A stretch of 64,000 nt of DNA from Roseivivax sediminis (GTDB taxonomy: Bacteria > Pseudomonadota > Alphaproteobacteria > Rhodobacterales > Rhodobacteraceae), in contig NZ_FOMS01000005.1 in assembly GCF_900112685.1 (NCBI RefSeq), positions 186,001 to 250,000 of the forward strand, written 5' to 3'. Position 1 is the first letter of the stretch; every line of letters begins with the position of its first letter. The translations under genes were made by a program, and so were the position numbers. Shown piece after piece: positions 39,858 through 63,262 of the stretch. Below the pieces are notes generated by a model. That model saw only the letters and a program-made list of their open reading frames with translations, ran no database searches and was not told the origin of the DNA.

Positions 39858-42326
39858 ATGCGGCTGGTCTTCCGCTGGCTTCTGCGGCTCGCCACGCTGG
39901 CGATCCTGCTGGCGGTGATCGGCGTCGGTCTGGTCTATTACCTCGCCTCGCGGTCGCTGCCGGATTATTCCAAGACGCTGCGCGTGGACGGGATCACCGC
40001 GGACCTGGAGATCGTGCGCGACAATTCCAACGTGCCGCATATCTTCGCGCGCTCCGACCGGGACGCCTATTTCGGGCTGGGCTACACCCACGCGCAGGAC
40101 CGGCTGTGGCAGATGATGCTCTTGCGGCGCACGGCTCAAGGGCGGCTGTCGGAACTGTTCGGAAGCCGCACCGTCGACACCGACACGCTGATCCGTCGGC
40201 TCGATCTCTACAACCTCGCGCGCGCCTCGGTGGAGCATCAGACGCCCGAGACGCTGGACGCGCTGGAGGCTTACGCCGCCGGTGTCAACGCGCGGATCGA
40301 CGAGATCAACCGGCGGTCGCTGGGACGCGGGGCTCCGGAGTTCTTCCTGTTCGACGCGCGCCTGCCGCCCTGGCAGCCGGCGGATTCGCTGGCCGTCATC
40401 AAGGTGATGGCGCTGCAGCTTTCGGGGCACCTCTCCGAGGAGGTGCTGCGCGCGCGCACCTCGCTGGCGCTGGAGGACGAGGACAAGCTGGCCGACATCC
40501 TGCCCGACATTCCCGGCGACGGGGTGGCGGCGCTGCCGGAATACGCCGCGCTGGCGCCGGGCGCGTCGCGGACCGCCGCGCTGGAGCCGGTGCCGGAGCG
40601 GGACGGGTTCCTGTCGCCCCTGCCCGAGCGCGGGCTTGCCGGCGCGTCGAACGCCTGGGCGGCCGCACCGTCGAGGTCGGCCTCGGGCGGCACGCTTCTG
40701 GCGGGCGATCCGCATCTGGGCTTCACGGCGCCGTCGATCTGGTATCTCGCGCGGATGCAGCTGACGGCGGGCGGAGTCATCGGCGGCACCATTCCCGGCA
40801 TCCCGGCGATCATGGTGGGCCGGTCGGAGCAGCTCGGGTGGGCGATCACGTCGTCCTATCTCGACGATCAGGACCTGCACCTGGAGGAGCTCAACCCCGA
40901 CGACCCGCAGCAGTACCGCACGCCGGACGGGTGGAAGGAATTCCGCACCCGCCGCTCGATCATCGAGATCAAGGACGCGCAGCCGATCACCATCACCATG
41001 CGCTGGACCGACAACGGGCCGGTGCTGCCCGGATCGGTCTACGACCTCGGCGCGATCACGCCGCAGGGGCACGTGATGTCGCTGTCCTGGACGGCGCTGT
41101 CCGGGCGCGACACGTCGATGAGCGCGGCGGTCGGCCTGATGGGGGCACAGGACGTGCGCAGCGCGATCGAGTTGTCGGAGGCCTATGTCGCGCCGAGCCA
41201 GAACCTCACGCTGATCGACGACGAGACCGTGGCGATGAAGACCATCGGCACGATGCCCCGCCGCGACCCTGGGCATCAGAGCCGGGGGCGCCTGCCATCC
41301 CCCGGCTGGGTCGAGGCGAACCGCTGGCAGGGCCGCCTGCCCTACGACCAGAACCCCGAATTCGTCGCGCCCGCGGGTGGTGTTGTCGGCAACACCAACA
41401 ACAAGGTGATCGACCGGCCCTTCCCACGTCACATGAGCCATGAATGGGGGGACAGCCAGCGGGTGATGCGCTGGCGCGCGATGATGCAGGGCCGCGAGGT
41501 GCATACCCGCGACAGCTTCATCGAGGCGCAGCTCGACACCGTGTCGCCGGCGGCGCGCACGCTCCTGCCGCTGATCGGCGCGGACCTGTGGTTCACCGGC
41601 GAGGCCGCCGCCGAAGGCACACCCGAGCGCCGCCGCGCCGAGGCGCTGAGCCTCCTGGCGGACTGGAACGGCGAGATGAACGAGCACATGCCCGAGCCGT
41701 TGATTTACGCCGCCTGGCTGCGCGCGCTTCAGGACCGGCTGATCCGCGACGAGCTCGGGCCCCTGGCGGACGAATACGACCATGTGCAACCGCTCTTCAT
41801 CGAACGGGTGTTCCGCGACGTGAGCGGGGCCTCGGCCTGGTGCAACGTGATCCGGTCGAGCCGGGACGAGACCTGCACCGACATCGCGCGGCTGGCGCTC
41901 GACGACGCGCTGGTATGGATCGACGAGACCTACGGTACCGCGCTCGAAAGCCTGCGCTGGGGCAATGCGCACCAGGCGACGCACGATCATCCGGTTCTGG
42001 GCGATGTGCCGGTGCTGCGGTATTTCGTGAACATCCGGCAGTCGACCTCGGGCGGCGATCACACGTTGCAGCGCGGGCGGACCTCCGGGCAGGATCCCGA
42101 ACCGTTCCTCAACGTGCACGGCGCCGGCTATCGCGGCGTCTACGACTTCGCCGATCCGGATTCGTCGGTCTTCATCAACTCGACGGGACAGTCGGGGCAT
42201 TTCCTGTCGCGCCATTACGACGATCTCGGCCAGCTCTGGCGCCGGGGCGAGTATATCCCGATGTCGCTCGATCCCGAGCTTGCCAGGGCCGCCGCCGTCG
42301 GCGTGACCCGGCTGACCGCGAAGTAA
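39858..42326 (+). CDS. Penicillin acylase family (Ntn) amidohydrolase
   Basis: 822 aa. N-terminal hydrophobic anchor or signal (residues 8-30), then the alpha part with VRDNSNVPHIFARSDRDAYFGLGYTHAQDRLWQM, a spacer, and the self-processing site GLAGASNAWA whose S264 becomes the N-terminal nucleophile of the beta chain. Beta-chain marks: GTLLAGDPHLGF, WAITSSYLDDQDLHLEEL and a late HGAGYRGVYDFADPDSSVFINSTGQSGH-like segment. Such periplasmic enzymes cleave acyl amides, including acyl-homoserine lactones and beta-lactams. Substrate unknown; a role in quorum quenching is possible but unproven. Confidence 0.9.
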   Translation: MRLVFRWLLRLATLAILLAVIGVGLVYYLASRSLPDYSKTLRVDGITADLEIVRDNSNVPHIFARSDRDAYFGLGYTHAQDRLWQMMLLRRTAQGRLSELFGSRTVDTDTLIRRLDLYNLARASVEHQTPETLDALEAYAAGVNARIDEINRRSLGRGAPEFFLFDARLPPWQPADSLAVIKVMALQLSGHLSEEVLRARTSLALEDEDKLADILPDIPGDGVAALPEYAALAPGASRTAALEPVPERDGFLSPLPERGLAGASNAWAAAPSRSASGGTLLAGDPHLGFTAPSIWYLARMQLTAGGVIGGTIPGIPAIMVGRSEQLGWAITSSYLDDQDLHLEELNPDDPQQYRTPDGWKEFRTRRSIIEIKDAQPITITMRWTDNGPVLPGSVYDLGAITPQGHVMSLSWTALSGRDTSMSAAVGLMGAQDVRSAIELSEAYVAPSQNLTLIDDETVAMKTIGTMPRRDPGHQSRGRLPSPGWVEANRWQGRLPYDQNPEFVAPAGGVVGNTNNKVIDRPFPRHMSHEWGDSQRVMRWRAMMQGREVHTRDSFIEAQLDTVSPAARTLLPLIGADLWFTGEAAAEGTPERRRAEALSLLADWNGEMNEHMPEPLIYAAWLRALQDRLIRDELGPLADEYDHVQPLFIERVFRDVSGASAWCNVIRSSRDETCTDIARLALDDALVWIDETYGTALESLRWGNAHQATHDHPVLGDVPVLRYFVNIRQSTSGGDHTLQRGRTSGQDPEPFLNVHGAGYRGVYDFADPDSSVFINSTGQSGHFLSRHYDDLGQLWRRGEYIPMSLDPELARAAAVGVTRLTAK

Positions 42327-42729: not shown

Positions 42730-43389
42730 ATGAGCCAGATCTTCGGGCGAGGAGCGAACACGGCCGCGCGCATCGCGCTCCCGTCGCTCGTGATCGTCCC
42801 GGTGCTGATCCTGGCCACGCTGATCTTCTTCCGCTGGACCGACTACGTCACCGGCGAGGACCGCATCGTCGACCAGCCGGTCGCCTTCAGCCACCGCCAC
42901 CACACCTCCGAGGTCGGCATCGACTGCCGCTACTGTCACACGTCGGTGACGGAGGAGGCGAGCGCCGGCCTGCCGCCCACCAAGACCTGCATGACCTGCC
43001 ACAGCCGCCTGTGGTCCGAGGAAGAGATGCTCCAGCCGATCCGCACGAGCTGGGTCACCGGCGAGCGTCTGCGCTGGAACCGCGTCCACGACCTGCCCGA
43101 CCACGTCTACTTCAACCACTCGACCCACGTGACCAACGGCGTCGCCTGCACCCAGTGCCACGGCCCCGTGGGCGACATGCGGCTGATCGGCCAGGAGGCG
43201 CCGCTGACGATGGGCTGGTGCCTCGACTGCCACCGCGACCCCGGCCCGAATCTCAGCCCGCCAGAGGAGATCTTCGCCCCCATGCCGACCCGCCGTGCCA
43301 AGATCGACGCCGCGGCGATCCATGCGCTCTTGCGAGACTACGATATCGAGGCCGGAAACCTGACGGATTGCACCACATGCCACCGATGA
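42730..43389 (+). CDS. actA: Alternative complex III subunit ActA, pentaheme cytochrome c
   Basis: 219 aa. One N-terminal membrane helix (about 17-37) anchors a periplasmic domain with five CxxCH heme sites: CRYCH, CMTCH, CTQCH, CLDCH and, at the very end, CTTCH. Extra histidines (FSHRHHT, FNHST) are likely distal ligands. In the family ActA passes electrons from ActB to the mono-heme ActE. AGGGA precedes the ATG. It is the first gene of a 12-gene operon and overlaps actB by 4 bp. Confidence 0.94.
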   Translation: MSQIFGRGANTAARIALPSLVIVPVLILATLIFFRWTDYVTGEDRIVDQPVAFSHRHHTSEVGIDCRYCHTSVTEEASAGLPPTKTCMTCHSRLWSEEEMLQPIRTSWVTGERLRWNRVHDLPDHVYFNHSTHVTNGVACTQCHGPVGDMRLIGQEAPLTMGWCLDCHRDPGPNLSPPEEIFAPMPTRRAKIDAAAIHALLRDYDIEAGNLTDCTTCHR

Positions 43390-46103
43390 GCGCGCCCCCG
43401 GATCTTCGCACCGGCACCGAAGGCGTCGACCGCCGCGGGGCGCTGAAGCTCTTTGCCGCCGGCGCCGCGGCACTTGCCACAGGCTGCCGCCCGCAGGAAC
43501 AGATGCTGCCCTATGTGGACATGCCCGAGAGCGGCGCGTCGAGCGACGCCGCGTTCTTCGCCACCGCCCTGCCGCTGGCGGGCGCCGCCCGCGGCGTGCT
43601 GGTGGAGAGCCACCAGGGCAAGCCGACCAAGGTGCACGGCAACCCCGACCACCCGGCGAGCCTCGGAGGCACGGACGTCTTCGCGGAGGCGGAGCTGCTC
43701 GCGCTTTTCGATCCCTCGCGCTCCACCAGCCCCATCGCGGGCCAGGCGCCGGTGACATGGTCGGCGGCTGCGCAGCGGCTGCGCGCCGCGGCCGGGCCCG
43801 GCACGGCGCTTCTGACCGGCCCCGTGGCCTCGCCGACACTGGCCCGCCAGATCGGCGCGCTCCTGGACGAGGTGCCGGGCCTGCGCTGGTTCACCGAGCG
43901 GCCGGCGCAGCCGGCGCTTGAGGTGCAGGCCGGCCCCGGCGCGATGGACCGGATGCAGCTCTGGCCCGATTGGGACCGCACCGATGTGGTGGTCACGCTC
44001 GGCGCCGATCCGCTCGGCCCCGGGCCCGGACAGGTGGCGCTGACCCGCGGCTGGTCGCGCAGCCGGCGCAATCGGCGCAGCGCCGCCCGCCTCTTCGCGT
44101 TCGAGCCGGTACCGACTCTCACCGGCACCAAGGCCGATTACCGCATGGCGGTCCGGCCGGAGGATCTGCCCGGCATCGCCGAGGCCCTGCGCGCGGCGCT
44201 GGACGGCGGCAGCGACGTACCTGCGCCGGTGGCCCGCGCGGCCGAGGCGCTTTCTGCCGCACCCGGCCGTGCGGTCGTTCTGCCGGGACCGGACCTGCCC
44301 ATCGAGACGCAGGCGCTCATCGACGAGATCAACCGCACGCTCGACGCGCCGCTCGCGCGACTCGCACCCGCCTGGCGCTGGCCCTCGCTCGCGCAGGAGG
44401 ACGCCGGCGCGCTGACCGACGCCATCGCCTCGGGCGAGGTGGAACGACTGGTGGTCCTGGGCGCCAACCCCGCCTACACCCTCGGCGAAGCCTTCGAGGA
44501 AGCCGCGCGCGACATCGAGATCCTGCATTTCGGCGAGCGCCGGGACGAGACGGCGGCGATGGCGGCGCTGCACGGCCCGCTGCACCATCCGCTCGAGGAC
44601 TGGTCGGACCTGCGCGCGCTCGACGGAAGCGCCGCGCTCGTCCAGCCGCTGATCGAGCCTTTGCACGAGACCCGCTCCGCCCACGAGGTGGTGGAGATGC
44701 TGCGCGGGCGCACCGGCACCGGCCCCCGCGCGCTGGTGCAGGAGACCTGGCGCGCAGAGTGGGGCGAGGATTTCGATGCACGCTGGCACGAGGCGCTCAG
44801 CCGCGGCGTGATCGAGGGCTTTCCCGTCGGCACCGTGTCCCCGGACTGGCCGGCCGATACCGCCGTCTCCGAGACCCCCGACGGCGCCTTCGCGCATGTG
44901 CGCCAGCTCTCGACCTCCGTCCTGTCCGGCGAATACGCGCCGAACGGTTGGCTGCAGGAATGCCCCGCGCCGCTGACGAAACAGGTCTGGGGCAACGCCG
45001 CCAGCTTCGCGCCCGTCGATGCCGAAAGACTTGGCATCGAAGAGGGCGACACCGTGGTCCTGCGCGGCGGAGGCACCTTCGCACGCCTGCCTGCGGTCAT
45101 CCTGTCGGGTCAGGCCGAGGGCACTGTGGGCACCACTCTCGGCTACGGGCGCAAGGCCGCCGGCGCCATCGGCAGCGGCGTCGGCATGAACACCGCCCCG
45201 CTCGGCCCCCGCGTGGACGTGGAGCGCGTCGACGGCGGCGCCGAACTCATCCGCACGCAGCGCGAGTTCGGCCAGCACGACCGCGACCTTCTGCGCAGCG
45301 TCACCGATGCAGAGGCCGGGCTCGAAAGCGAGCACCACCAGCCGGCCAGCTTCTACCGCGAGCGCGACCATGACAGCCCGTCCTGGGGCATGGTGATCGA
45401 CACCGACGTCTGCTCGGGCTGCAACGCCTGCATGATCGCCTGCCAGTCGGAAAACAACGTGCCCGTCGTCGGCCCCGAAGAGGTCGCGCGCGGGCGGCAC
45501 ATGCACTGGATCCGCATCGACACCTACGATCTGCCGGGCGAGGATCGGCGCGGCTTCCAGCCGGTGCCCTGCATGCATTGCGAAAAGGCCCCTTGCGAGC
45601 CTGCCTGCCCGGTCGCCGCCTCGGTCCATGACGAACAGGGGCTCAACGCGCAGGTCTACAACCGCTGCGTCGGCACACGCTTTTGCCAGGCCAACTGCCC
45701 CTACCAGGTGCGGCGGTTCAACTTCTTCGACTATTCCGACAGCCAGGCCTATGCCGATCTCGGCGCCGACCTGCTGCAGGCGATGCGCAACCCCGACGTC
45801 AGCGTGCGCGGCCGCGGCGTGATGGAGAAATGCACCTATTGCGTCCAGCGCATCGAGGCCGCGAACCACGCCGCCTCGCGCGAGGACCGGCCCATCGCGG
45901 ACGGTGAGGTCGTGACCGCCTGCCAGTCCGCCTGCCCGGCCGAGGCGATCACCTTCGGCGACGTCACCGACCCCGAAAGCGCCGTGAGCCGCGCCAAGGA
46001 GAATCCGCGCCACTACGCGCTCCTTGAACATCTCGGCACCCGGCCTCGCACCACCTACCTGGCCCGCGTCGCCCCCGGCGCCGAAGAGGACGAGGGCGCA
46101 TGA
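43386..46103 (+). CDS. actB: Alternative complex III subunit ActB, iron-sulfur protein
   Basis: 905 aa. A Tat-type signal ([11 protein letters not shown], ending ATGC) exports it folded. The long N-terminal part (about 40-620) resembles molybdopterin oxidoreductases but binds no molybdenum in this family. The C-terminal ferredoxin-like part (about 665-870) has four cysteine clusters: [35 protein letters not shown] and CTYC...CQSAC, the usual set for three 4Fe-4S and one 3Fe-4S centres. It shows the expected natural fusion of both parts. The start at 43386 overlaps the actA stop (ATGA). Confidence 0.94.
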
Positions 46104-47434
46104 GCGAGGCCTACATCCCCGACGCGCGCCCCGGCGCGATCACCGCGGATGTCGCGGACCCGATCCTGAAGCGGGGGCCCGGGCGGATCTGGTGGATCTG
46201 CCTCGTCGTCTCGCTCGCCCTCACCGGGCTGATGGTCGTCAGCCTCGTCGTGCTCGTGACCGGCGGCATCGGCATCTGGGGGATCAACACCTCGAACGTC
46301 TGGGGGTTCGCGCTCGTCCACTACGTCTGGTGGATCGGCATCGGCAACGCCGGCACGCTGATCTCCGCGATGCTGCTGCTGACCCGGCAGCACTGGCGCA
46401 CCTCGATCAACCGATTCGCCGAAGCGATGACCTTGTTCGCCGCCTGCATCGCCGGCCTCTTCCCGATCTTCCACCTCGGGCGGCCGTGGCTGTTCTACTG
46501 GCTGGTGCCCTATCCCAACACGCTCGGCCTCGTGCCGCAGTGGCGCAGTCCGCTGGTGTGGGACTTCTTCGCCATCGCCAGCTACATCCTGTTTTCGCTG
46601 ATGTTCTGGTACACCGGCGCGATCCCCGATTTCGCCACGATGCGCGACCGCGCCAAGGGCAAGATCGCGCAGATCGCCTATGGCATCCTCGCGCTCGGCT
46701 GGCGCGGGTCGGCGCGGCACTGGAAGATCTGGCAGAGCTATTACGGCGCGATGGCGGCGATGGGCGTGCCGCTCGTCGTCTCCGTGCACTCGGTGGTGGG
46801 CATGGATTACGCCGCGGGCATCGCGCCGGGCTGGAACGTGTCGATCTACCCGCCCTATTTCGTCGTCGGCGCGATGTTCTCGGGCTTTGCCGTCGTCGTC
46901 GTGCTCGCGGCGATCTTCCGGCGCGCGCTCAATGCCGCGCACATGATCACCGACCGGCATTTCGACGTGATGGGCAAGATCCTCCTGACCGGGTCGCTGA
47001 TCATGACCGTCAGCTACGCAACCGAGTGGTTCTATGCGTGGTACTCGGGCGAGCACGCCGAACAGCGGGTGGTGGCCGACCAGCTCTGGGGCGACTTCTG
47101 GCCGATCTACTGGGCGATGCTGCTGGGCAATTGCATCTTCCCGCAGCTCTACTGGATCCCGAAGATGCGCACCAACCTCACGGCGACGATCCTGATCGCC
47201 ATCGGTATCAATTTCGGCATGTGGTTCGAGCGGGTGGTGATCACGGTCATCCCGCCCGCGCGCGGCTTCCTGCCCTCGCAATGGTCGTTCTACTGGCCGA
47301 CCTTCTGGGACTGGTCGCTGTTTCTCGGCACGCTGGGCTTCTTCACGCTGCTCTTCACGCTGTTCCTGCGGGTGATCCCCGCCATCTCCGCCCACGAGAT
47401 GAAGGAGCACCTGGGCGAGGAGAAGCGCACATGA
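46100..47434 (+). CDS. actC: Alternative complex III subunit ActC, quinol-binding membrane protein (NrfD/PsrC-like)
   Basis: 444 aa with about ten membrane helices. NrfD-family marks: WWIGIGNAGTLISAMLLLTR, the FHLGRPWLFYWLVPYPN loop that belongs to the quinol site in ACIII structures, and SVHSVVGMDYAAG. ActC takes electrons from quinol at the periplasmic side and hands them to ActB. Overlaps of 4 bp at both ends. Confidence 0.94.
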   Translation: MSEAYIPDARPGAITADVADPILKRGPGRIWWICLVVSLALTGLMVVSLVVLVTGGIGIWGINTSNVWGFALVHYVWWIGIGNAGTLISAMLLLTRQHWRTSINRFAEAMTLFAACIAGLFPIFHLGRPWLFYWLVPYPNTLGLVPQWRSPLVWDFFAIASYILFSLMFWYTGAIPDFATMRDRAKGKIAQIAYGILALGWRGSARHWKIWQSYYGAMAAMGVPLVVSVHSVVGMDYAAGIAPGWNVSIYPPYFVVGAMFSGFAVVVVLAAIFRRALNAAHMITDRHFDVMGKILLTGSLIMTVSYATEWFYAWYSGEHAEQRVVADQLWGDFWPIYWAMLLGNCIFPQLYWIPKMRTNLTATILIAIGINFGMWFERVVITVIPPARGFLPSQWSFYWPTFWDWSLFLGTLGFFTLLFTLFLRVIPAISAHEMKEHLGEEKRT

Positions 47435-47943
47435 GCCGCAAGCTCCTTCTCGTCTTCACCGAGGTCGCGCCGATGGTCGCGGCAGTGCGGAGCCTCAGGG
47501 GTGAGGGCGTCACCGGCCTGGATGCGCACACGCCTTGGCGGGTGCCAGAGATCGAGAACGCTCTGGAACCCGATGGCCCGGGCGTGCGCCGGGCAATGCT
47601 GATCGGCGGCGCGCTCGCGGCCTCCGCGACCTTCGCGTTCCAAGCCTGGTCGGCGGTCTGGTTCTACCCGCTCGACATCGGCGGGCGGCCGCTGTTTTCC
47701 TGGCCCGCCTTCGGGTTCGCGACGTTCGAGATGGCGATCCTAGGCGCGGCCGTCACCGGCTTCGTGACGATGATCCGGCGCTGCGGGCTGCCGCGCCTCA
47801 ACCACCCGTTCTTCGCCACGGCAGAGACCGAGGCGGCGACCGACGACACGCTCTACCTGTCGGTGCCGGAGGCAGCGGCGCCCGACCGACTGCGCCTGTC
47901 GAAGCTCTCCGGGCTGCAGGGCATCGTGGAGGTGGACGGATGA
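47431..47943 (+). CDS. actD: Alternative complex III subunit ActD (DUF3341)
   Basis: 170 aa. A soluble N-terminal part (LLLVFTEVAPMVAAVRSLR, GLDAHTPWRVPEIENAL) is followed by two membrane helices (about 55-80 and 90-115) and a short C-terminal tail. The DAHTPWRVPEI block matches the DUF3341 signature (D-xx-SP-PVHG-like region) of ActD, which clamps ActC/ActF on the cytoplasmic side. The true start is 47431, overlapping actC by 4 bp. Confidence 0.85.
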   Translation: MSRKLLLVFTEVAPMVAAVRSLRGEGVTGLDAHTPWRVPEIENALEPDGPGVRRAMLIGGALAASATFAFQAWSAVWFYPLDIGGRPLFSWPAFGFATFEMAILGAAVTGFVTMIRRCGLPRLNHPFFATAETEAATDDTLYLSVPEAAAPDRLRLSKLSGLQGIVEVDG

Positions 47944-48482
47944 ACCGCCTGCCCCTCGCCCTTCTCGCCCTCGCCGCGCTCGCCGCCTGCCGGGAGGAGG
48001 ACTCTTCCCTGACGGACCAGCCCAAGCTGGAGGCGTGGGAGACGAGCGCGATCTGGGCCGACGACGCGGCCGCGCGCCCCTGGCCCGAGGGCGTCGTGCG
48101 CCGCGATGCGCCCGCGCCCGGCGCGGAGATGACACCGCCCGAGGTGGACGCCGCGCTGCTCGCCCGCGGCCGTGAGCGGTTCGACATCTTCTGCAGCCCG
48201 TGCCACGGCCTGACCGGCGCCGGCGACGGCCGCGTGGTGGAGCGCGGCTTCCCGCAACCACCCTCGCTTCTCAGCGCGCGGCTGCGGGACGCCCCGGCAG
48301 AGCATTTCGTGCGCGTGATCGCCGAGGGTTACGGCGTGATGTTTCCATACGACGACCGCGTGCCGGCCCCCGATCGCTGGGCCATCGCCGCCTATATCCG
48401 CGCGCTGCAGGCGGCCGAGCCGGACGTGGCCGAGGACAACCCCGCGCGGGCGCTCGTCCCGGTGGGAGGCGCCGATGGCTGA
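47940..48482 (+). CDS. actE: Alternative complex III subunit ActE, mono-heme cytochrome c
   Basis: 180 aa. A lipoprotein signal ends LAAC (Cys 17). A single heme site, FCSPCHGLTGAGDG, sits near residue 85, and the distal methionine is probably the one in GYGVMFPYDDRV. This lipid-anchored cytochrome c is the exit of electrons from ACIII toward the oxidase. It overlaps actD by 4 bp and actF by 8 bp. Confidence 0.92.
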   Translation: MNRLPLALLALAALAACREEDSSLTDQPKLEAWETSAIWADDAAARPWPEGVVRRDAPAPGAEMTPPEVDAALLARGRERFDIFCSPCHGLTGAGDGRVVERGFPQPPSLLSARLRDAPAEHFVRVIAEGYGVMFPYDDRVPAPDRWAIAAYIRALQAAEPDVAEDNPARALVPVGGADG

Positions 48483-49491
48483 GGTTCCGAGCGTGCCCCG
48501 CGCCACTCCGATGCGGATGGCCGCACTGGCGGTGCCGGCGGCGATCCTCGCGGTGATCCTGGGGATCTTCGAGCCGGCGGCGCTCGCCTCGGGCTTCCTC
48601 GTGGCGTGGGTGACGTGCCTGTCGGCCTGCATCGGCGCGGGTGTCTGGCTACTGATCGCGCAACTGACGGGCGGGGTGTGGCCGCTGGCGGGCGGCGCGA
48701 CGCTGCCGGCGCTGTCACGGATGACGCCGCTCGTCGCGGTGCTGGGGCCGATCGTGTTCCTGTGCGGCCCGATCCTCTACCCGTGGTGGCACGAAAGCGA
48801 GGGGCTGCGCGGCGAAATCTACCTCGTGCCGTGGTCGTTCGGGCTGCGCGGCGCGGTGATGCTCGCGCTCTGGGCGCTGATCGGCTGGCTGGCGCCGCGC
48901 CGGCCCGGCGCGCCGGTCTCGGCGCTGCTGCTCACCGGCTACGGCATCACCGTCGGGATCGCGGGGCTCGACTGGATCCTGTCGCGCGATCCGCACATGC
49001 TGTCGACCGCGTTCGGGATGCTGCTGGCGGCGATGCAGCTCGGCCTCGCGCTGGCGGTCTGCGCGATAAGGGGACTGGACACCGCGACGCCGCGGGCGGT
49101 GGCGGATTGGGGCGGGCTGATGCTCGCCACCTGCCTCGGGACCTTCTACCTCTCGGCGATGCAGTTTCTCGTCAGCTGGTCGGGAAACCTGCCTTACAAG
49201 GCCGAATGGTTCGGCGCGCGTACCGACGGCATCGGCACCTTCGTCATCGTCGCGGCCTTCCTGCTCGGAATATTGCTGCCGTTCGGGACCCTGATCGCCA
49301 CGCACCGGCGCGGATCGGCGCGGGCCCTGCGGGCCGTGGGCGGCAGCATGGCCGCGGCGGTCTTCCTGCACATGCTATGGCTGACCGAGGGCGGCGGGAT
49401 GCACGTCGCGCTCGTCGCTGCCGCGGCGGTGCTGGGCGCGGTCGCGGGCCTGATCTGGCCGCTGCTGGAGCGGAGGGCCGGAAATGGATGA
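48475..49491 (+). CDS. actF: Alternative complex III subunit ActF, membrane protein
   Basis: 338 aa with about ten membrane helices. It is the ActC-like second integral subunit. Typical content: SACIGAGVWLLIAQLTGGVW, a WWHE motif (PWWHESEG), GLDWILSRDPHMLSTAFGM and LMLATCLGTFYLSAMQFLVSWSGNLP. It is shorter than many ActF proteins, mainly through small loops. In solved ACIII structures ActF has a putative proton path but no quinol site. It overlaps the next gene by 8 bp. Confidence 0.9.
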   Translation: MAEVPSVPRATPMRMAALAVPAAILAVILGIFEPAALASGFLVAWVTCLSACIGAGVWLLIAQLTGGVWPLAGGATLPALSRMTPLVAVLGPIVFLCGPILYPWWHESEGLRGEIYLVPWSFGLRGAVMLALWALIGWLAPRRPGAPVSALLLTGYGITVGIAGLDWILSRDPHMLSTAFGMLLAAMQLGLALAVCAIRGLDTATPRAVADWGGLMLATCLGTFYLSAMQFLVSWSGNLPYKAEWFGARTDGIGTFVIVAAFLLGILLPFGTLIATHRRGSARALRAVGGSMAAAVFLHMLWLTEGGGMHVALVAAAAVLGAVAGLIWPLLERRAGNG

Positions 49492-49810
49492 ACTCAGGAC
49501 CCCCGATTTCCCGGTCCGCTGGGTGCTGATCACGATCGTCGCCGGTTTCGTGCTCGTCGGCGCCGTGGTCGGAGTGATCACGCTGACCTATGGCGGCGCG
49601 CGCCCGTCCTCCTTCCCGCAGCCGTCCGACCTCGGTGCGCCGCGCCTGGAGACCGAACCGGTCGCCAATCACGAGGCATGGCTGGCCCGCCAGCGCGCGC
49701 TCCTGAGCGGCGCCGAGGGCCGCACGCCAATCACCGAGGCGATGGAGGCGATCGCCGCCCGCGGCGCCGAGGCCTACGCGCCCCTGCCCGCCGAGGGAGG
49801 CGCGCAATGA
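49484..49810 (+). CDS. Small membrane protein of the act-cta operon, unknown
   Basis: 108 aa. One membrane helix (about 13-37: WVLITIVAGFVLVGAVVGVIT), then an extended periplasmic tail with proline-rich and helical parts (LGAPRLETEPVANHEAWLARQRALLSG, then ITEAMEAIAARGAEAY). No cysteine and no heme or metal motif. Family not recognised. Overlaps of 8 and 4 bp with actF and the SCO gene make it a true member of the operon; an assembly factor or linker between ACIII and the oxidase is inferred only from position. Confidence 0.7.
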   Translation: MDELRTPDFPVRWVLITIVAGFVLVGAVVGVITLTYGGARPSSFPQPSDLGAPRLETEPVANHEAWLARQRALLSGAEGRTPITEAMEAIAARGAEAYAPLPAEGGAQ

Positions 49811-50535
49811 TCCGGGTCTGTCTCTCCCTCGCGCTGATCTGCCTGGCCCTGCCGCTGCGCGCGGGGCTCACCCCGGCCGAGCTCGACACGGTGCGCGCCG
49901 ATCCGCCCGAAGGCGCAAGCGTCGAGCTCGGGACCGACCAGCCGACGGTGCTGATCTTCGCGGATTACGATTGCGGCGCGCTCTGCGATGCGATCCTGGC
50001 GCAGACGGCCGAAACGCTGTCCGGCACGGGCCTGACGCTCGGCGCGGACTACGCGCTGGTCGTCGTCGGCATCGACCCGCGCGACGGCCCGGGCGCGGCG
50101 CAGAGCTTCGTCGAGGCGCAATCCGGCGCGCTGGCCGCCCAGAGCATCGACACACGAACCCCGGACGAGACGACGCTCTCGGATCTGACGCAGGCGCTCG
50201 GCTACACCTACCGCTTTGATGCGGAGAACGACCGTTTCGCCCATCCTTCCGCCCGCTACGTGCTGACGGCCGACGGCCAGGTCTCCCGCGTGCTGCCCGC
50301 CTTCCGCGCCGCGCCAGAGGACCTGCGCCGCGCGCTGATCGAGGCCGGAGAGGGCCGGATCGGCGGGATCGCGGAGCGCATCGCGCTGGCCTGCTACGGC
50401 TTCGACCCTGTCACCGGGAAATATTCGCTGTCCATCGCGCGCGCGGCGACCGCGGGGGGCATCGCAAGCACGCTGCTCGTCGCCGGCGGTATCGCCATCG
50501 CGCTGCGCCGCGAACGCAGAAAAGGAGCGACATGA
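49807..50535 (+). CDS. SCO1/SenC-type copper chaperone with C-terminal membrane anchor
   Basis: 242 aa. Signal peptide (1-19) and a thioredoxin-like domain. The copper pair CGALC in FADYDCGALCDAIL is near residues 57-61 and the third ligand is probably the histidine in FAHPSARYVLTADG, the position found in SCO proteins. A C-terminal membrane helix (about 213-235, IASTLLVAGGIAIAL) with a basic end anchors it. It would load the CuA centre of the subunit II encoded next. Starts 4 bp before the previous stop. Confidence 0.87.
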   Translation: MIRVCLSLALICLALPLRAGLTPAELDTVRADPPEGASVELGTDQPTVLIFADYDCGALCDAILAQTAETLSGTGLTLGADYALVVVGIDPRDGPGAAQSFVEAQSGALAAQSIDTRTPDETTLSDLTQALGYTYRFDAENDRFAHPSARYVLTADGQVSRVLPAFRAAPEDLRRALIEAGEGRIGGIAERIALACYGFDPVTGKYSLSIARAATAGGIASTLLVAGGIAIALRRERRKGAT

Positions 50536-51473
50536 ACCGCGCCGCCCTGCCCGACCAAGCTTCCACCCAGGCCGTCGCCTTCGACCAGCTGTTCTGGACG
50601 ATGGTCGGCTTCTCGGTCTTAATCGTGCTGCTGGTCGGCGCGCTGATCTTCGTCTTCTCGCTGCGCTTCCGCGCCAGGACCGGCGTGCCGCGCAAGAGCG
50701 TGGCGGTGCTCGAAAGCCGGCGGGTGGAGATCTTCTGGACCGCCGCCACCGCCTTCTTCGCGGTGTTCTTCTTCTGGTACACCTCCACCGTCACGCTCGA
50801 CACCGTAGAGGCACCGCCCGACGCGATGGAATACCACGTCGAGGCGAAACAATGGATGTGGAAGACGCGCCACCCCTCGGGCGTGCGCGAGATCAACGCC
50901 ATGCACGTGCCGACCGGGCGGCCGGTGACGGTGTTCCTCAACTCGCAGGACGTGATCCATTCGTTCTTCGTGCCCGCCTTCCGGATCAAGAAGGACGTGG
51001 TGCCGGGCCGGACCTCCACCGTCTGGTTCGAGGCGACGAAGCCGGGAACCTATCCGCTGTTCTGCACCGAGTATTGCGGCACCAACCATGCGGTGATGAC
51101 CGGCGAGGTTACGGTGATGACCCCCGCCGATTACGCCGCCTGGCTGGAGACGCGGGCCGAGGGCGAGACGCTCGCGGCCACCGGCGCGCGGCTCTTCACC
51201 GAGGCCGGCTGCTCGGGCTGTCACGCGGAGGCATCGCAAGTGCACGCCCCGGACCTGTCGGGCCTCTTCGGCCGCGACCGGCCGCTGGCGAACGGTGACA
51301 TCGTGACGGCCGACACCGCCTATATCCGCGATGCGATCCTGCTGCCCGAACGCGACATCGCCGCCGGCTTCGAGCCGATCATGCCGAACTTCACCGGCAT
51401 TCTCGAGGACGGCGAGGTCGAGGCGCTCGTCGCCTATATCCGCACGCTGGGACAGGAGGGTCTGGGGCAATGA
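50532..51473 (+). CDS. ctaC: Cytochrome c oxidase subunit II with fused cytochrome c domain
   Basis: 313 aa. Two membrane helices (about 20-45 and 68-88), then the cupredoxin domain with the full CuA set: the histidine in [12 protein letters not shown]178, C182, H186 and M189 in [14 protein letters not shown]-terminal cytochrome c domain has CSGCH (C227, C230, H231) and a distal methionine in [11 protein letters not shown]. This fusion defines caa3-type oxidases, which accept electrons directly from a donor complex. Here the donor is probably ActE. Overlaps of 4 bp at both ends. Confidence 0.95.
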
Positions 51474-53152
51474 GCGCGACCGACGCACACGGCCATATCG
51501 AGCAGGAGCCCGACTATCTCGGCGCCGGGCACAGCATCCGGTCGTGGCTGCTGACCACCGATCACAAGCGCATCGGCATCCTATACCTCGGCACGCTGAT
51601 CATCTTCTTCCTGATCGGGGGCGCGGCGGCGACCTTCATCCGGCTGGAGCTTGCGACGCCGGAAGGTGATCTCGTGACGGCGGACACCTACAACCGGCTC
51701 TTCACGCTGCACGGCGTGATCATGGTGTGGTTCTTCCTGGTGCCGGCGGTGCCCTCCACCCTGGGCAACTTCCTACTCCCGCTCGCCATCGGCGCGCGCG
51801 ACATGGCGTTCCCCAAGCTCAACCTCGCGAGCTGGTACATCAACCTCGCCGGCGGCGCGCTGGCGCTGGCCGCCCTCTTGCTCGGCGGGGTCGATACCGG
51901 CTGGACGTTCTACACGCCCTATTCGTCGCTCTATTCCAATTCCTACGTTACGCTCGCCGCGCTCGGCGTTTTCATCGCCGGGTTCTCGACCATCGCCACC
52001 GGCCTCAACTTCATCGTGACGGTGCACACCCATCGCTGCGAGGGGCTGACGTGGATGCGCCTGCCGCTCTTCGTCTGGTCGCTCTACGCCACCTCCATCG
52101 TCATCGTGCTCGCGACCCCGGCACTGGCCATCGCGCTTTTGATGGTGGTGATGGAGCGGCTCTTCTCGCTCGGGCTCTTCGACCCGGCGCAGGGGGGCGA
52201 TCCGATCCTCTTTCAGCACATCTTCTGGTTCTACAGCCACCCGGCGGTCTACATCATGATCCTGCCCGGCTTCGGCGTGGTGACCGAGGTGCTGACCTGC
52301 TTCTCGCGCCGCAAGGTCTTCGGCTACGAGGCGATGGTGTTCGCGATCCTCGGCATCGCGCTTTTCGGGTTTTTCGTCTGGGGCCACCACATGTTCGTGT
52401 CGGGCCAGTCGGCCTATGCGAGCCTGATCTTCTCGCTGCTGTCGTTCCTCATCGCGATCCCCTCGGCGATCAAGGTGTTCAACTGGTCGGCAACACTCTA
52501 TGGCGGGCACATCACCTTCGAGGCCTCGATGCTCTACGCGCTCGGCTTCGTCGGGCTCTTCACGCTCGGCGGGCTGACGGGGCTGTTCCTGGCCTCCATC
52601 CCGATCGACGTGCACATGCACGACACCTACTTCGTCACCGCGCATTTCCATTACATCATGGTCGGCGGCATGGTCTCGGCCTTCTTCGCCGGCCTGCACT
52701 TCTGGTGGCCGAAGATCACCGGGCGGATGTATTCGGAACTCTGGGCGCGGCTCGCGGCCCTGCTGATGTTCCTCGGGTTCAACTTCACGTTCTTTCCGCA
52801 ATTCATCCTCGGCTACATGGGGATGCCGCGGCGCTACCATTCCTATCCGCCCGAGTTCGAGATGTGGAACGTGCTGAGCTCGGCCGGCGCTGTGATCCTT
52901 GCCGTCGCCTATCTCATGCCGATCGTCTATTTCAGCGTCTCGCTGCTGCGCGGGCCGCGGGCGGGGGACAATCCCTGGCAGGCGCGCGGGCTGGAATGGC
53001 AGACCTCCTCGCCGCCCCCGCGCGAGAATTTCGGCCCCCTTCCGGTCGTCACGCGCGAGCCCTACGACTACCACGCCGCCGACGAAGAACCGACGGCGCG
53101 CGAGGGCGAGCTGAACTTCCCCACCCGGTCCGAGACGGAGTTCCGCGAATGA
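51470..53152 (+). CDS. ctaD: Cytochrome c oxidase subunit I, A2-type heme-copper oxidase
   Basis: 560 aa with 12 membrane helices. Heme ligand in [11 protein letters not shown]; CuB ligands H257 in [10 protein letters not shown] and HH in WGHHMF, with the His-Tyr pair conserved (H257, Y261); heme a3/a histidines in [19 protein letters not shown]. Helix VI carries Y255-S256 before the histidine and lacks the glutamate of the A1 type, which marks the A2 subfamily. K-channel lysine present in PSAIKVFNW. It is the terminal oxygen-reducing, proton-pumping subunit. Starts inside the ctaC stop. Confidence 0.96.
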
Positions 53153-53778
53153 GCGAGGCCCTGCACGAACCGTTCGAGGATATCTCCAAGCAGCGCAGCG
53201 CCGAGCAGGCGGGGATCTGGATCTTCCTCGCCTCCGAGGTGATCTTCTTCGGCGGCCTGTTTCTCGGCTACGCGGTCTACAGGTACCGCTACCCCGACGG
53301 CTTCGCGCAGGCGCTCGCGGAGACCAACCTCACCCTCGGCGTCGTCAACACGATCCTGCTGCTGTGTTCGAGCGCGACCATGGCGCTGAGCGTCTGGGCG
53401 GGGCACGCGGAGATGCGGCGCCTCGTCGTCCTCGGTCTGAGCGCGACGCTGCTGCTGGGCTGCGGTTTTCTCGGCGTGAAGGGGTTCGAGTATTACGAGG
53501 ACATCCACCACCACCTCGTGCCCGGCCACCCAGAATTTCCCGTGGAGACCATCGGGGCGGAGATGTTCTTCAGCCTCTACTGGGCGATGACGGCGCTGCA
53601 CGGGGTGCACATGGCCATCGGCCTCGGCCTCATCGGCTGGACGATCCTCGCGGTCCGGGGCGAGCGCCTCGCCTGGCGCGAGACGGCGCATCTGCACGTC
53701 GTGGGGCTTTACTGGAACCTCGTGGACATGGTGTGGATCTTCCTCTTTCCGCTGCTCTATCTCGTGGGGCGCATGTGA
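53149..53778 (+). CDS. ctaE: Cytochrome c oxidase subunit III
   Basis: 209 aa with about five membrane helices, the short form usual in caa3 oxidases. Marks: [21 protein letters not shown] (helix with conserved E in SEV), [39 protein letters not shown] and [19 protein letters not shown]. It stabilises subunit I and proton pumping. Start 53149 overlaps the ctaD stop by 4 bp. Confidence 0.95.
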
Positions 53779-54095
53779 TGGCAGAGCACTCCGCAGCCCC
53801 CCTGATCCGCAAGGCCGCGTGGCTCGCCCTCGTGATGCTGCTTCTGATGGCGTGCTCGGTCGTGTCTGTCCTGATGCTGGACGGCTGGCTGGCCGTGGCC
53901 GTGCCGCTGGCGGTCGCCGTGCTCACCGCGACCATCGTGGCGCTGGCTTTCATGGAGGTGCAGAAGGCCGACGTGGTAAGCCAGATTTCCGCCGGAGTGG
54001 CGGTCGCCTTCCTCGGCATCCTCTTCGCGCTGACCTTCGCGGACGAGCTGACGCGCGCCCATATCCCGCCGACCTTCGAGGGCGCGGGCGAGTAG
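53778..54095 (+). CDS. ctaF: Cytochrome c oxidase subunit IV-like membrane protein
   Basis: 105 aa, three membrane helices (about 15-33, 37-57, 68-88). The order after subunits II, I and III, and the FMEVQKADVVSQISAG and ADELTRAHIPPT segments, fit the small prokaryotic subunit IV. It starts on the last base of the preceding stop (TGATG). It is the last gene of the 12-gene operon and converges on the DUF2783 gene with 12 bp between them. Confidence 0.8.
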   Translation: MAEHSAAPLIRKAAWLALVMLLLMACSVVSVLMLDGWLAVAVPLAVAVLTATIVALAFMEVQKADVVSQISAGVAVAFLGILFALTFADELTRAHIPPTFEGAGE

Positions 54096-54107: not shown

Positions 54108-54302
54108 CTAGCGGTCAGGGCGCGCAGCGGCGTCGAGTGCCTGTTTCAACACCTCCCGGTCGCCGATGTGATTGCCAAGGATCAGGATGAGGCGCGCGTT
54201 GAAGGCGTGGCTTTCCGCCTCGCTCAACCCTTCGTGGGCGGCGAGAAGATCGCAATAGACGCCGTCGGGATCGGACAGGTTGGGATCGAGCGTCAGGGTC
54301 AT
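54108..54302 (-). CDS. DUF2783 domain-containing small protein
   Basis: 64 aa from ATG 54302. Soluble and mostly helical, with the family pattern DPNLSDPDGVYCDLLAAHEG, LSEAESHAFNARLILILGNHIGD and a final EVLKQALDAA. DUF2783 genes commonly follow an FAD monooxygenase in aromatic-degradation clusters; here the gap is 5 bp. A helper or stabiliser of that enzyme is a reasonable guess without proof. Confidence 0.85.
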   Translation of the reverse strand: MTLTLDPNLSDPDGVYCDLLAAHEGLSEAESHAFNARLILILGNHIGDREVLKQALDAAARPDR

Positions 54303-54307
54303 GTCGG

Positions 54308-55933
54308 TCACTCCTTTGCGCAGGCGTGGTGCAGGGCCGCGCGAACGGCGTCCGCCTCGAAAACGTCCCACCGCGCGGCGACATGCTGGTCGGGTCGGAT
54401 CAGGTAGACGCCCGACGAGGCATCCCCGAGATAGCGCTCGGCGAGCGCGCCGGCGGGGCTCTCCGAGGTGGACAGCGCCAGGCGCGTCGCGGTGATGCCG
54501 CCGTCCTCCACCGCCTCCGGCGCGTCCGCGTCGATCGTCAGGAGGGTGAAATTGGTGCCGAGCCGCTCCAGCAGATAGCCATCTGCGACTGGCGCGTCGG
54601 GACATGGCGCACCGGGCCGCGTCCGCGCCGGGCCACCGGTGAGCGCATCTGCCCCGTTGAGCGGCCCGGCGTCGTAGCTGCACGGCACCGACAGCCGGCC
54701 CGAGTTCACCAGAGGCCGGGCGAAGGCGTGCCGCTCTGCCAGGTCCAGCACCGCGTTCCGGAAAAGATGGCTGATCGCCGATTTCGGTGTGATGAAATCG
54801 GTGGAGCGCGTGGAATTCAGGATGTTCTCGTCGGCGCCGTGGCACCGCTCCGCGCAATAGGTGTCGAGGAGGCTCTCGGGGGCCTTGCCCGCCACGACGA
54901 GGCCGAGCTTCCAGCCGAGGTTGTCGACGTCCTGGATGCCGGAATTGGCCCCACGCGCCCCGAAGGGCGACACCTGGTGCGCCGCGTCACCGGCAAAGAG
55001 GACCCGACCGTGGCGGAACCTCTTCATCCGCCGGCACTGGAACGTGTAGATCGAGGACCAGACGATCTCGTACTCCACGCCGTCACCGAGCATCGCGTCG
55101 AGCCGCGCGCGGATGTTCTCTTCCTTCAGCTCCTTGGCGCGGTCCACGTCCCAGCCGATCTGGAAGTCGACGCGCCAGATGCCGTCCGGCTGCTTGTGAA
55201 GAAGGCAGGACGCGCCCGAGGACTTGAACGACGGCTCGAACCAGAACCAGCGCTCGGTCGGGAAATTGGCGCTCATGCGGATGTCGGCGATCAGGAAATT
55301 GTCGGTAAAGACCCTTCCCTCGAAATCGAGGCCCATCATCTTGCGCAAGGGAGACCCCGCGCCATCGGCTCCGATCAACCAGTCGGCGGCGACGCGATAC
55401 GGCCCCTCGGGCGTCATCACGTCGAGCAGAACGTGGTCGTCTCGCACCTCGGCCGCGTCGACCCTGTTCTTGCCGCGGATCTCGATGGGTGCCCCCTGCG
55501 TCTGCGCCTCGCGGACCCGCTCGACGAGGAAACGCTCGAAATATGGCTGCTGGAGGTTGATGAAGGCCGGGAACTTGTGCCCATCCTCCGGCAGGAGGTT
55601 GAATTCGAACACCTTGCGGTCCTCGTGGAAGACCTTGCCGAGGTTCCACACCACGCCCTTGCCCAGCATCGGCGCCGCCGCGCCCCAGCGGTCGCAGATC
55701 TCGAGCGTGCGCTTGGCAAAGCAGATCGCGCGGGAGCCTTGGCCGATCCCCTCGTGATCGTCGAGCACGACGACCGGGATGCCCTGCAGGCCGAGGTCGA
55801 GCGCGGTCGCGATCCCGATCGGGCCACCGCCGAGCACGACGACCGGATGCCGGACCGGCGCGCCCGCGTCCTGGTCGGCGCACTTGGCGTATGGATAGAG
55901 CTTGAACGCCAGGCCGTAACGGTCGTCCAGCAT
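54308..55933 (-). CDS. FAD-dependent aromatic monooxygenase (PheA/TfdB type)
   Basis: 541 aa from ATG 55933, which follows GGAGGACAACGGGG. Flavoprotein hydroxylase: the FAD beta-alpha-beta motif VVVLGGGPIGIATALDLG, the substrate/NADPH DG motif ADWLIGADGAGSPLRKMMG, and the second FAD motif VLFAGDAAHQVSPFGARG. The C-terminal thioredoxin-like part is present. Within a homogentisate operon it probably makes a ring hydroxylation that produces homogentisate or its precursor, such as from hydroxyphenylacetate. The exact substrate is not determined by sequence. Confidence 0.87.
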   Translation of the reverse strand: MLDDRYGLAFKLYPYAKCADQDAGAPVRHPVVVLGGGPIGIATALDLGLQGIPVVVLDDHEGIGQGSRAICFAKRTLEICDRWGAAAPMLGKGVVWNLGKVFHEDRKVFEFNLLPEDGHKFPAFINLQQPYFERFLVERVREAQTQGAPIEIRGKNRVDAAEVRDDHVLLDVMTPEGPYRVAADWLIGADGAGSPLRKMMGLDFEGRVFTDNFLIADIRMSANFPTERWFWFEPSFKSSGASCLLHKQPDGIWRVDFQIGWDVDRAKELKEENIRARLDAMLGDGVEYEIVWSSIYTFQCRRMKRFRHGRVLFAGDAAHQVSPFGARGANSGIQDVDNLGWKLGLVVAGKAPESLLDTYCAERCHGADENILNSTRSTDFITPKSAISHLFRNAVLDLAERHAFARPLVNSGRLSVPCSYDAGPLNGADALTGGPARTRPGAPCPDAPVADGYLLERLGTNFTLLTIDADAPEAVEDGGITATRLALSTSESPAGALAERYLGDASSGVYLIRPDQHVAARWDVFEADAVRAALHHACAKE

Positions 55934-56071
55934 CCCCGTTGTCCTCCCTTGGAATGCCGGGGCCGGCCTGCGACCGGCCCTCGGGCCTCTCGTCATGACG
56001 GGCTTTGCGCCCGTGATCCCCGCAAACGCTCCCCCTGAGCGTTTGCCGCGCCTCTGGCGCGGTCCCGGCGC

Positions 56072-57022
56072 TCACCCCTGCAGCGCCGCCCACATCTCCT
56101 TGTCGCGCGCGGCGGTCCAGACGCGCGGGGTGTCGATGCCTTGCGCCTCGTCGTAGGCCCGCGCAACGTTGAACGGCAGGCAATGCTCGTAGATCGCGTA
56201 ATCCTTGAACTTGGGGTCGCACTCCGCCCGCACGGCATCCCAAGCCTCTTTGAGCGTGCCGCCGCGGGCGACGACCTTGGCCGCAGGCTTGTACGTGCTG
56301 GCGACGAAATCGGCCGTGTTGGCGATGGCCTCGGCGACCTTTTGCTCGCCGACGAGCGCGTCGCCGCGGCCCGGCGCGATGCTCTTGGGCTCGAAAGAGG
56401 CGATGGCCGCCAGCGTCTCGGGCCAGTCCGCGAAATGCCCGTCGCCGCAATAGCAGGCCGAGTGATACTCGACGATGTCGCCGGTGAACATGACCTCCTG
56501 GTCGGGCACCCAGATCACCGCGTCGCCGGCAGTGTGCGCCCGGCCGAGATGCATGATGTCCACCCGCCGCTTGCCCAGATAGACGGACATGCCATCGCTG
56601 AACGTGGTCGTCGGCCAGGTCAGCCCGGGGATCTCCTCGTGCCCCTGGAAAAGCCGCGGGAAGCGCTCGAACTCGCTGTCCCAGTCCTCCTGCCCGCGTT
56701 CGGCCACCATGGACCGCGTCACGTCGGACATGATGACCTCGGGCGCGCCGTAGGCCGACGCGCCGAGCACGCGCACGGCGTGGTAATGGGTCATCACGAG
56801 ATGGCTGATCGGCTTGTCGGTCACCGAGCGCACGCACTCGATCACCTTGCGGGCAAGGCGCGGCGTGGCCTGCGCCTCGACGATCATCACGCTCTCGTCG
56901 CCGATGATGACGCCGGTGTTCGGGTCGCCCTCGGCGGTGAAGGCGTAAAGCCCGTCGCCCACTTCCGTGAAGCTGACGGTCTTCTCTTCCATGTCTCCGG
57001 CAGAGGCGAATGCCTTGGCCAT
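56072..57022 (-). CDS. MBL-fold protein of the homogentisate operon with changed metal motif
   Basis: 316 aa; AGGAGA 6 bp before ATG 57022. The metallo-beta-lactamase fold is clear (GDGLYAFTAEGDPNTGVIIGD, then THYHAVRV, HLGRAHTAGDAVIW, MFTGDIVEYH). The usual HxHxDH becomes H79xH81xV83R84, so one metal site lacks its Asp and His; histidine in the GRAHTAGD loop and the aspartate of TGDIVE remain. It may bind one metal or act differently. It sits between fahA and the FAD monooxygenase, with 12 bp to fahA, so it is part of the pathway. Confidence 0.82.
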   Translation of the reverse strand: MAKAFASAGDMEEKTVSFTEVGDGLYAFTAEGDPNTGVIIGDESVMIVEAQATPRLARKVIECVRSVTDKPISHLVMTHYHAVRVLGASAYGAPEVIMSDVTRSMVAERGQEDWDSEFERFPRLFQGHEEIPGLTWPTTTFSDGMSVYLGKRRVDIMHLGRAHTAGDAVIWVPDQEVMFTGDIVEYHSACYCGDGHFADWPETLAAIASFEPKSIAPGRGDALVGEQKVAEAIANTADFVASTYKPAAKVVARGGTLKEAWDAVRAECDPKFKDYAIYEHCLPFNVARAYDEAQGIDTPRVWTAARDKEMWAALQG

Positions 57023-57034
57023 GCGATCTCTCCT

Positions 57035-58300: not shown

Positions 58301-58397
58301 GCGCACTCCTGCAGCCGCGCGCCCCTGCTTCTTCTCGTTCGAAATACTCCGGGGGAGTCGCCGCAGGCGACGGGGGCGGAGCCCCCATTCCGGCCCC

Positions 58398-62993: not shown

Positions 62994-63133
62994 CAGTTCC
63001 ATTGGCGCACGAGACGCCCCGTCGGCTGCCACCCCTCGACCGCTGGGGCGCCCTGGCCCTGCCATATCCCGACGCGCTCCGGGCCGCGTGGACTGTTGCC
63101 GTGCCACCATTTGGCTGTTATCCAGCGCTCAAA

Positions 63134-63217: not shown

Positions 63218-63262
63218 ACTTGATCTGCCGGCTGCGATCCCGGCGTGACATGTCCTCCGTCT

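Follow-up and report, generated by a model that had tools for sequence, protein, structure and literature searches.

Alternative Complex III (ACIII), a quinol-oxidizing complex, has been described together with a haem-copper oxidase in several settings. In Rhodothermus marinus, electrons are described as passing from quinol through FeS1 and the five haems of ActA to ActE and then, by direct transfer, to subunit IIc of a caa3 oxidase, and a 20 Å map suggests an ACIII-caa3 pair (PMC5928083). In Flavobacterium johnsoniae, ACIII forms a supercomplex with an aa3 oxidase (6btm; PMC8552683). Menaquinol is named as the substrate of the ACIII enzymes studied so far (PMC5928083, PMC8552683). In alphaproteobacteria such as Azospirillum and Inquilinus, ACIII genes joined to SCO and an A2-type oxidase with a cytochrome c-fused subunit II are described as cytochrome c oxidase (COX) operon type a-I (PMC4013037, PMC6431628), ActC/ActF are reported from 46 alphaproteobacterial species, or 6% (PMC8076601), and the vast majority of Rhodobacterales are described as having type b COX operons only (PMC4013037). 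Here, we analysed a 64,000-nucleotide stretch of Roseivivax sediminis (Rhodobacterales; contig NZ_FOMS01000005.1, positions 186,001 to 250,000), referred to below as the window, in which a single run of 12 genes encodes ACIII and a caa3 oxidase.

The locus is very probably a COX operon of type a-I, a complete electron transport module of ACIII and caa3 with plasmid-aided mobility that entered Rhodobacterales at least twice and works beside, not instead of, the bc1-based chain of its host. This explanation draws on gene content, the residues of the cofactor and quinol sites, the respiratory inventory of the host, congruent trees, and relatives on plasmids. The ACIII genes adjoin the A2 oxidase, with SCO included, so the operon is a known kind of module, and its unusual part is the host order. 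No published account of ACIII-caa3 in Rhodobacteraceae, or of a plasmid-borne copy in Alphaproteobacteria, was found among the titles and abstract openings consulted. The locus places a complete quinol-to-oxygen module alongside the standard chain in an order that uses bc1 with aa3/cbb3. Carrier strains would offer a clean test bed for energy conservation by ACIII with a ubiquinol donor and for whether ACIII passes electrons to its own oxidase only, despite competing oxidases.

Organization of the operon and identity of its subunits

All 12 frames of the operon are open, every start is ATG, and 11/11 junctions overlap, by 4, 4, 4, 4, 8, 8, 4, 4, 4, 4, and 1 bases in order from actA to ctaF (Table 1). 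This is exactly the run at 42730-54095 described in a first-pass annotation of the sequence, whose claim of a complete ACIII and A2-type caa3 set is likewise upheld by the domain, motif, and structure matches presented below. The junctions also overlap without exception (11/11) in the congeners G392 and G393, with starts set by homology, and in the annotated operon of the Bradyrhizobium japonicum plasmid pS11L-1 (NZ_CP126014.1), which has the same 12-gene order as the window but lies on a conjugative plasmid. Full overlap thus belongs to some alphaproteobacterial copies and is not peculiar to one genome; it may couple the translation of successive genes. The operons of two other plasmids are looser: that of pMRAD01 is missing SCO and has two gaps between genes, and that of pR132503 has two gaps. 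Automatic start picking, applied to 56 loci filtered to ≥10 adjacent junctions, recovered only 8/11 overlaps for the window itself; it was judged unreliable and was not used as evidence.

The subunits were matched to the solved ACIII complexes 8k9e, 6lod, 6f0k, and 6btm, and together with Pfam these matches place ActA to ActF in the one cluster. ActA matches ActA of all four (best E, 3.1e-58) and has five CXXCH motifs, equivalent to five haem c sites; among the ActA proteins audited in other loci, L097 and L099 alone deviate (three CXXCH each, with L099 cut by a contig end). ActB likewise matches all four complexes, with ActB of 6lod aligned across both domains (E, 6.2e-180), and includes an NrfC-like iron-sulfur domain. 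Its last 260 residues contain 15 cysteines, the number needed for one [3Fe-4S] and three [4Fe-4S] clusters, counted together rather than assigned individually as ligands, and its leader, read by eye, has RR and a lipobox-like cysteine. ActC belongs to the NrfD family (PF03916; E, 4.2e-20) and matches all four solved ActC chains. ActD also matches all four complexes, most weakly 6btm (E, 0.0024), and retains E100, the equivalent of E122. For ActF, the Pfam search gave no match, and the four solved ActF chains matched with E values from 7.8e-11 (6f0k) to 8.4e-4.

The oxidase genes have the features of an A2-type caa3 enzyme, namely, a subunit II in which CuA is fused to cytochrome c and a caa3-type subunit IV. 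CtaC has a CuA site and one CXXCH and matches CoxB (TIGR02866) over the cut-off. In CtaD, the sequence YSHPAV shows that YS replaces the helix VI Glu of subunit I, which we take to be the mark of an A2-type oxidase.

The 108-amino acid (aa) gene, left as unknown by the first-pass annotation, is ActG, judged by a family profile. Searched singly, its sequence gave no match, but a 17-row profile of the family matches chain G of 8k9e, named ActG in Chloroflexus ACIII, at an E of 2.7e-6; the same search also returned two unrelated chains, at E values of 0.0049 and 1. The family consensus is FPxPRLQ..P..DL...YGWxDR..G.ARIPI..AM, and its YGWxDR part is missing from the window, L022, and L019. No Pfam match was obtained for SCO in the copies from the window, G117, or pS11L-1. 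A CxxxC motif and a His are invariant across 11 aligned rows, and an acidobacterial row matches SCO1-SenC (PF02630) over the cut-off.

With the R. marinus complex (6f0k), the window shares the pentahaem ActA, the monohaem lipoprotein ActE, ActG, the haem c on oxidase subunit II, and the quinol-site residues (PMC5928083). The window differs in that its host appears to be ubiquinone-only and has bc1, ActF is short with several proton-path residues missing, and ActC carries the replacements H97N and F89Y. The ACIII core subunits are also held in common with F. johnsoniae, where a sixth haem domain is present in ActA and the oxidase belongs to the aa3 type (PMC8552683), whereas the window has a five-haem ActA and an extra haem c site on CtaC.

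Host respiratory chain and proposed electron route

The genome that contains the window (4.62 Mb, 37 contigs, 99.96% complete by tool estimate) was searched for other respiratory enzymes. A bc1 complex, for which a search had been proposed at the outset, is present (Rieske protein, cytochrome b, and cytochrome c1), together with three other haem-copper oxidases and one bd oxidase. The four COX1 genes comprise ctaD of this operon, an aa3-type subunit I with FGHPEV, a 1176-aa protein with FGHPEV that is perhaps a COX1-COX3 fusion, COX1 alone having been detected in it, and the COX1 of a cbb3 oxidase (ccoNOP). Three UbiA-family proteins are encoded. The first reads as haem O synthase, over the cut-off, the second reads as UbiA (267 of 275 bits, partial sequence), and the third reads as PRK08238 (316 of 351 bits, partial); none of the three matched MenA or MqnP over the cut-off. 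By this gene content, the host appears to be ubiquinone-only.

From these data and the R. marinus route, we infer a path for the electrons. Quinol, presumably ubiquinol, would be oxidized at the periplasmic side of ActC, and electrons would travel via the [3Fe-4S] cluster of ActB, the five ActA haems, and the ActE haem to reach CtaC (haem c and CuA). They would then move through haem a of CtaD to its a3-CuB site, at which O2 would be reduced. SCO would load CuA, and ActG and CtaF would be small accessory subunits. The step from ActE to CtaC is reasonable by analogy with R. marinus, a supercomplex of ACIII and the oxidase is plausible by analogy with Rhodothermus, and proton pumping may accompany the reaction.

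Alternatively, ACIII could be an independent quinol:cytochrome c oxidoreductase whose electrons go to soluble cytochrome c and, through it, to other c-type oxidases of the cell, with no built-in supercomplex and with the co-location of the genes reflecting co-transfer alone. The other haem-copper oxidases of the genome are compatible with such a role, ACIII of Roseiflexus is reported to have been isolated without an oxidase (PMC8552683), and loci such as L190 and L192 have ACIII genes but no oxidase genes in the fetched stretch. However, a cytochrome c is built into CtaC, just as in R. marinus, for which direct transfer is described (PMC5928083), and the ACIII and oxidase gene sets give the same tree (see below). 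We regard a separate ACIII as a credible but less probable arrangement than a coupled module.

Distribution and gene order

ActD was found in 3/390 genomes of the order, 5/385 of the class, and 33/398 of the phylum, the last in 17/213 genera, in agreement with the initial impression that the operon is unusual for a rhodobacteral genome. In the family, sampled at nearly one genome per genus, 2/394 genomes had ActC at an E of up to 1e-40; the window genome shares its family group with G378, taken to be Psychromarinibacter sediminicola C21-152. Within the genus, full-length ActB occurs in 3/9 genomes. A scan of named genomes, from which 80 of at least 588 confirmed relatives were kept and the window's near kin were left out, provided loci for comparison of gene order. 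All of actA to actF, ctaC, and ctaD were seen in 50 of the 80 fetched loci, with the window's gene order in 47/50 and actC first in the remaining three (L052, L056, and L061). The ActG profile had no match in 10 of these 50 loci, and SCO had none in 5.

Some loci depart from this layout in other ways. ActC and ActD are fused in one frame in L189, L195, and L196 (G1175, G1268, and G1153), that is, in 3/4 genomes found for one alphaproteobacterial genus; for two of the three, the 15-kb stretch shows the fusion and ActF and no ActA, ActB, ActE, or oxidase genes. In L178 (G654), the operon is complete except that actB and actF are each broken into two frames, through either sequencing error or decay. 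In L037 (Phycisphaerae), a second sco-ctaCDEF set lies immediately upstream of the ACIII operon.

Phylogeny and horizontal transfer

Trees were built for ActC (53 rows), CtaD (50 rows; bootstrap not yet converged), and, by a quick method, ActB (35 rows), and the three are congruent. The window, G393, G392, and G117 form a clade (clade I) beside a sister clade of Roseomonas, Roseicella, Methylobacterium, Bradyrhizobium, and the alphaproteobacteria G1160 and G1278, and these ten rows are held together with support of 100/100 (ActC), 100/99 (CtaD), and a Shimodaira-Hasegawa-like approximate likelihood ratio (SH-aLRT) of 99 (ActB). Psychromarinibacter (G378) is placed elsewhere, with another alphaproteobacterial genus (100/100 for ActC, 100/100 for CtaD, and 100 for ActB). 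A single clade of the five rhodobacteral rows was rejected by the approximately unbiased (AU) test, which was run on the unrooted ActC (p, 1.4e-5) and CtaD (p, 2.8e-4) trees. Long branches are seen for G1175 and L109 (ActC), L109 (ActB), and L081 (CtaD). In a genus-level two-gene tree, the three carriers do not form one clade (AU p, 0.0165), and a single gain followed by losses would explain the pattern in the genus as well as repeated gains would.

Relatives of ActC were detected in 19/72,556 plasmid records, all below 60% identity; 4 of the plasmids are conjugative, 5 are mobilizable, and 10 are non-mobilizable. The best matches are from Bradyrhizobium japonicum (56.7%, on pS11L-1) and Methylobacterium radiotolerans (56.5%), genera that both have copies in the sister clade, the plasmid copies themselves being absent from the trees. 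ACIII and oxidase genes occur together in all three plasmids opened (pS11L-1, pMRAD01, and pR132503). The congruence of the ActC, CtaD, and ActB trees and this co-location on plasmids support transfer of the operon as one unit, as the first-pass annotation had proposed. That annotation set the operon against Bacteroidetes, Chloroflexi, and deltaproteobacterial lineages; the nearest relatives found are instead alphaproteobacterial, in an arrangement already published as COX operon type a-I, and the placement of the genes favours a pool within alphaproteobacteria as the probable source over Bacteroidetes or Chloroflexi. A position within vertical alphaproteobacterial lineages, named there as the outcome that would speak against transfer, is borne out only in part, in that the genes do fall among alphaproteobacteria but their pattern is not vertical. 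The operon thus seems to have entered Rhodobacterales at least twice via transfer among alphaproteobacteria, with transfer into the order the presumed direction, and the whole operon would move, at least partly, on plasmids.

An operon ancestral to Rhodobacterales and lost in most lineages, with no transfer into the order, would agree with a composition that matches the host, with the ActC tree, which joins the window and G393 to the exclusion of G392, and with the two-gene genus tree, which also puts G392 outside the set holding G000 and G393. It is nevertheless improbable, given that one rhodobacteral clade was rejected for both ActC and CtaD, that the 3/390 carrier genomes would demand very many losses, and that relatives are found on plasmids.

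Several observations weigh against a mobile, coupled module. No rhodobacteral plasmids are among the 19 records, in a search that may omit the window's near kin. Recent import, as judged by base composition, was rejected, since GC and third-position GC fall inside the flanking range or exceed it and show no deviation. No empty site was found in congeners, a comparison that failed because the flanking genes lie apart there. Within the window's own genus, vertical descent with losses could account for the distribution. Upstream of actA, a search for promoters and footprints yielded no firm result, and no promoter-like site was found. Finally, in F. johnsoniae, electron flow to aa3 is reported to persist without ActE; the same account notes that in R. 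marinus, whose ActA is without the sixth haem, as in the window, ActE may be indispensable (PMC8552683).

Quinol-site and proton-path residues

The ActC of the window retains the equivalents of the quinol-site residues H139, D169, and D253 (R. marinus numbering). In the pocket, W82, P136, H139, S164, L166, D169, V250, and D253 are kept, with I86 replaced by Leu and F89 by Tyr, and 19/20 residues of the proposed half-channels are kept, with H97 replaced by Asn. At F89, Tyr is present in 15/15 rows of clade I, its sister, and clade III, and Phe is present in 70/72 of the rest. Phe also occurs in 4/4 clade II rows and 2/4 beta/other rows, and the position therefore does not simply track quinone type. 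At H97, Asn is present in 10/10 rows of clade I and its sister, compared to His in 72/72 of the rest, 4/4 clade II, 4/5 clade III, and 3/4 beta/other rows; Asn is therefore an old stable state. Nor does H97N represent an excess loss from the path, for which 18/19 positions are retained versus 88/106 other conserved positions. Separately, D253 is replaced by Leu or Met in 5/5 clade III rows (G429, G462, G491, G1127, and G1175) and is Asp in every other row audited.

In ActF, the window retains 6/17 of the R. marinus proton-path residues examined; path residues are listed as >80% conserved, with E103 at 73% (PMC8076601). The R100/E103 pair is present in 0/23 alpha-, beta-, and other Pseudomonadota rows versus 53/64 of the rest, in a count that omits ActF proteins no longer than 260 aa, as well as L091 (the same genome as G378). 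It is also absent from seven additional Pseudomonadota rows (0/7; an eighth, G654, was not covered). These rows are not independent because the loss of the motif needs only four changes on the ActC tree. Path-specific loss at R100/E103, as a sign of pump loss, was not supported by a control: among columns at least 75% conserved elsewhere, the window retains 4/8 path columns versus 27/48 other columns (Fisher p, 1.0), so that other conserved columns were lost equally often. Because this control shows no path excess, pump loss is offered as conjecture. It is doubtful, in our estimate, that ACIII of ubiquinone-only proteobacteria has become a ubiquinol-fed, low-driving-force enzyme in which ActC holds on to its quinol site and almost the whole proton path, ActF, as the proposed second pump, has relaxed and given up charged path residues, and the proton yield per electron is lower than in the menaquinol enzymes of Rhodothermus or Flavobacterium. 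If this were the case, the operon would serve as a low-yield, horizontally mobile detour around bc1 that leads to the caa3 oxidase.

The divergence of ActF and ActG, with the YGWxDR part of the motif absent from ActG, and the H97N replacement could also suggest silent or decaying cargo, but this is very improbable when 12/12 frames are open in the window, BLAST recovered 11 or 12 of the genes from each of four relatives (with ctaF detected by profile alone for G117 and G378), CtaD is 93% and 91% identical to that of two congeners, the cofactor motifs and H139/D169/D253 are retained, and H97N is shared by the whole of clade I and its sister.

Genomic neighbourhood

The features of the window are listed in Table 1.

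Table 1. Genes of the ACIII-caa3 operon and neighbouring features, numbered from the first letter of the window
Feature	Description	Coordinates	Strand	Basis
actA	Pentahaem cytochrome c, N-terminal hydrophobic helix	42730..43389	+	Five CXXCH, solved-ActA matches
actB	B1 domain and Fe-S B2 domain	43386..46103	+	Match to ActB of 6lod
actC	NrfD-like quinol-oxidizing membrane subunit (predicted)	46100..47434	+	PF03916, solved-ActC matches
actD		47431..47943	+	PF11821, E 1.6e-36
actE	Monohaem cytochrome c with lipobox (read by eye)	47940..48482	+	PF13442, one CXXCH
actF	Second NrfD-like membrane subunit, short, divergent	48475..49491	+	6f0k_F, E 7.8e-11
actG	108 aa, one hydrophobic stretch near N-terminus	49484..49810	+	Family profile match to 8k9e_G
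SCO	SCO-type copper chaperone, divergent	49807..50535	+	CxxxC and His; same-place relative annotated SCO (pS11L-1)
ctaC	Oxidase subunit II, CuA domain fused to cytochrome c	50532..51473	+	TIGR02866, PF00116, PF00034
ctaD	A2-type oxidase subunit I	51470..53152	+	TIGR02891 over cut-off, YSHPAV
ctaE	Oxidase subunit III	53149..53778	+	COX3 PF00510
ctaF	caa3 subunit IV	53778..54095	+	TIGR02229 (caa3_sub_IV) over cut-off
Upstream gene	Penicillin-amidase family enzyme	39858..42326	+	
Downstream block	DUF2783, FAD monooxygenase (PRK08132 type), metallo-beta-lactamase-fold hydrolase, fumarylacetoacetase, homogentisate dioxygenase	54108..59759	-	
Acetate genes	Bifunctional enoyl-CoA hydratase/phosphate acetyltransferase, then acetate kinase; 4-base overlap	60430..62993	+	
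TPP riboswitch	Thiamine pyrophosphate (TPP) riboswitch, near window end	63129..63229	+	76.8 bits

The genes that flank the operon are present in 9/9 genomes of the genus and lie side by side in the window's own genome only. The operons of G392 and G393 occupy a common neighbourhood, at a different site from that of the window. The penicillin-amidase gene, immediately upstream of actA and likewise found in 9/9 genus genomes, has downstream neighbours in the fetched congeners unlike those of the window. Parts of the block downstream of ctaF stay together in the fetched congeners, and the region past its 3′ end differs. No CheB-CheR-PAS-HWE histidine kinase fusion was called next to the window's operon; one lies upstream of actA in G117 and G392 (L019:3329-6412 and L022:5813-9562).

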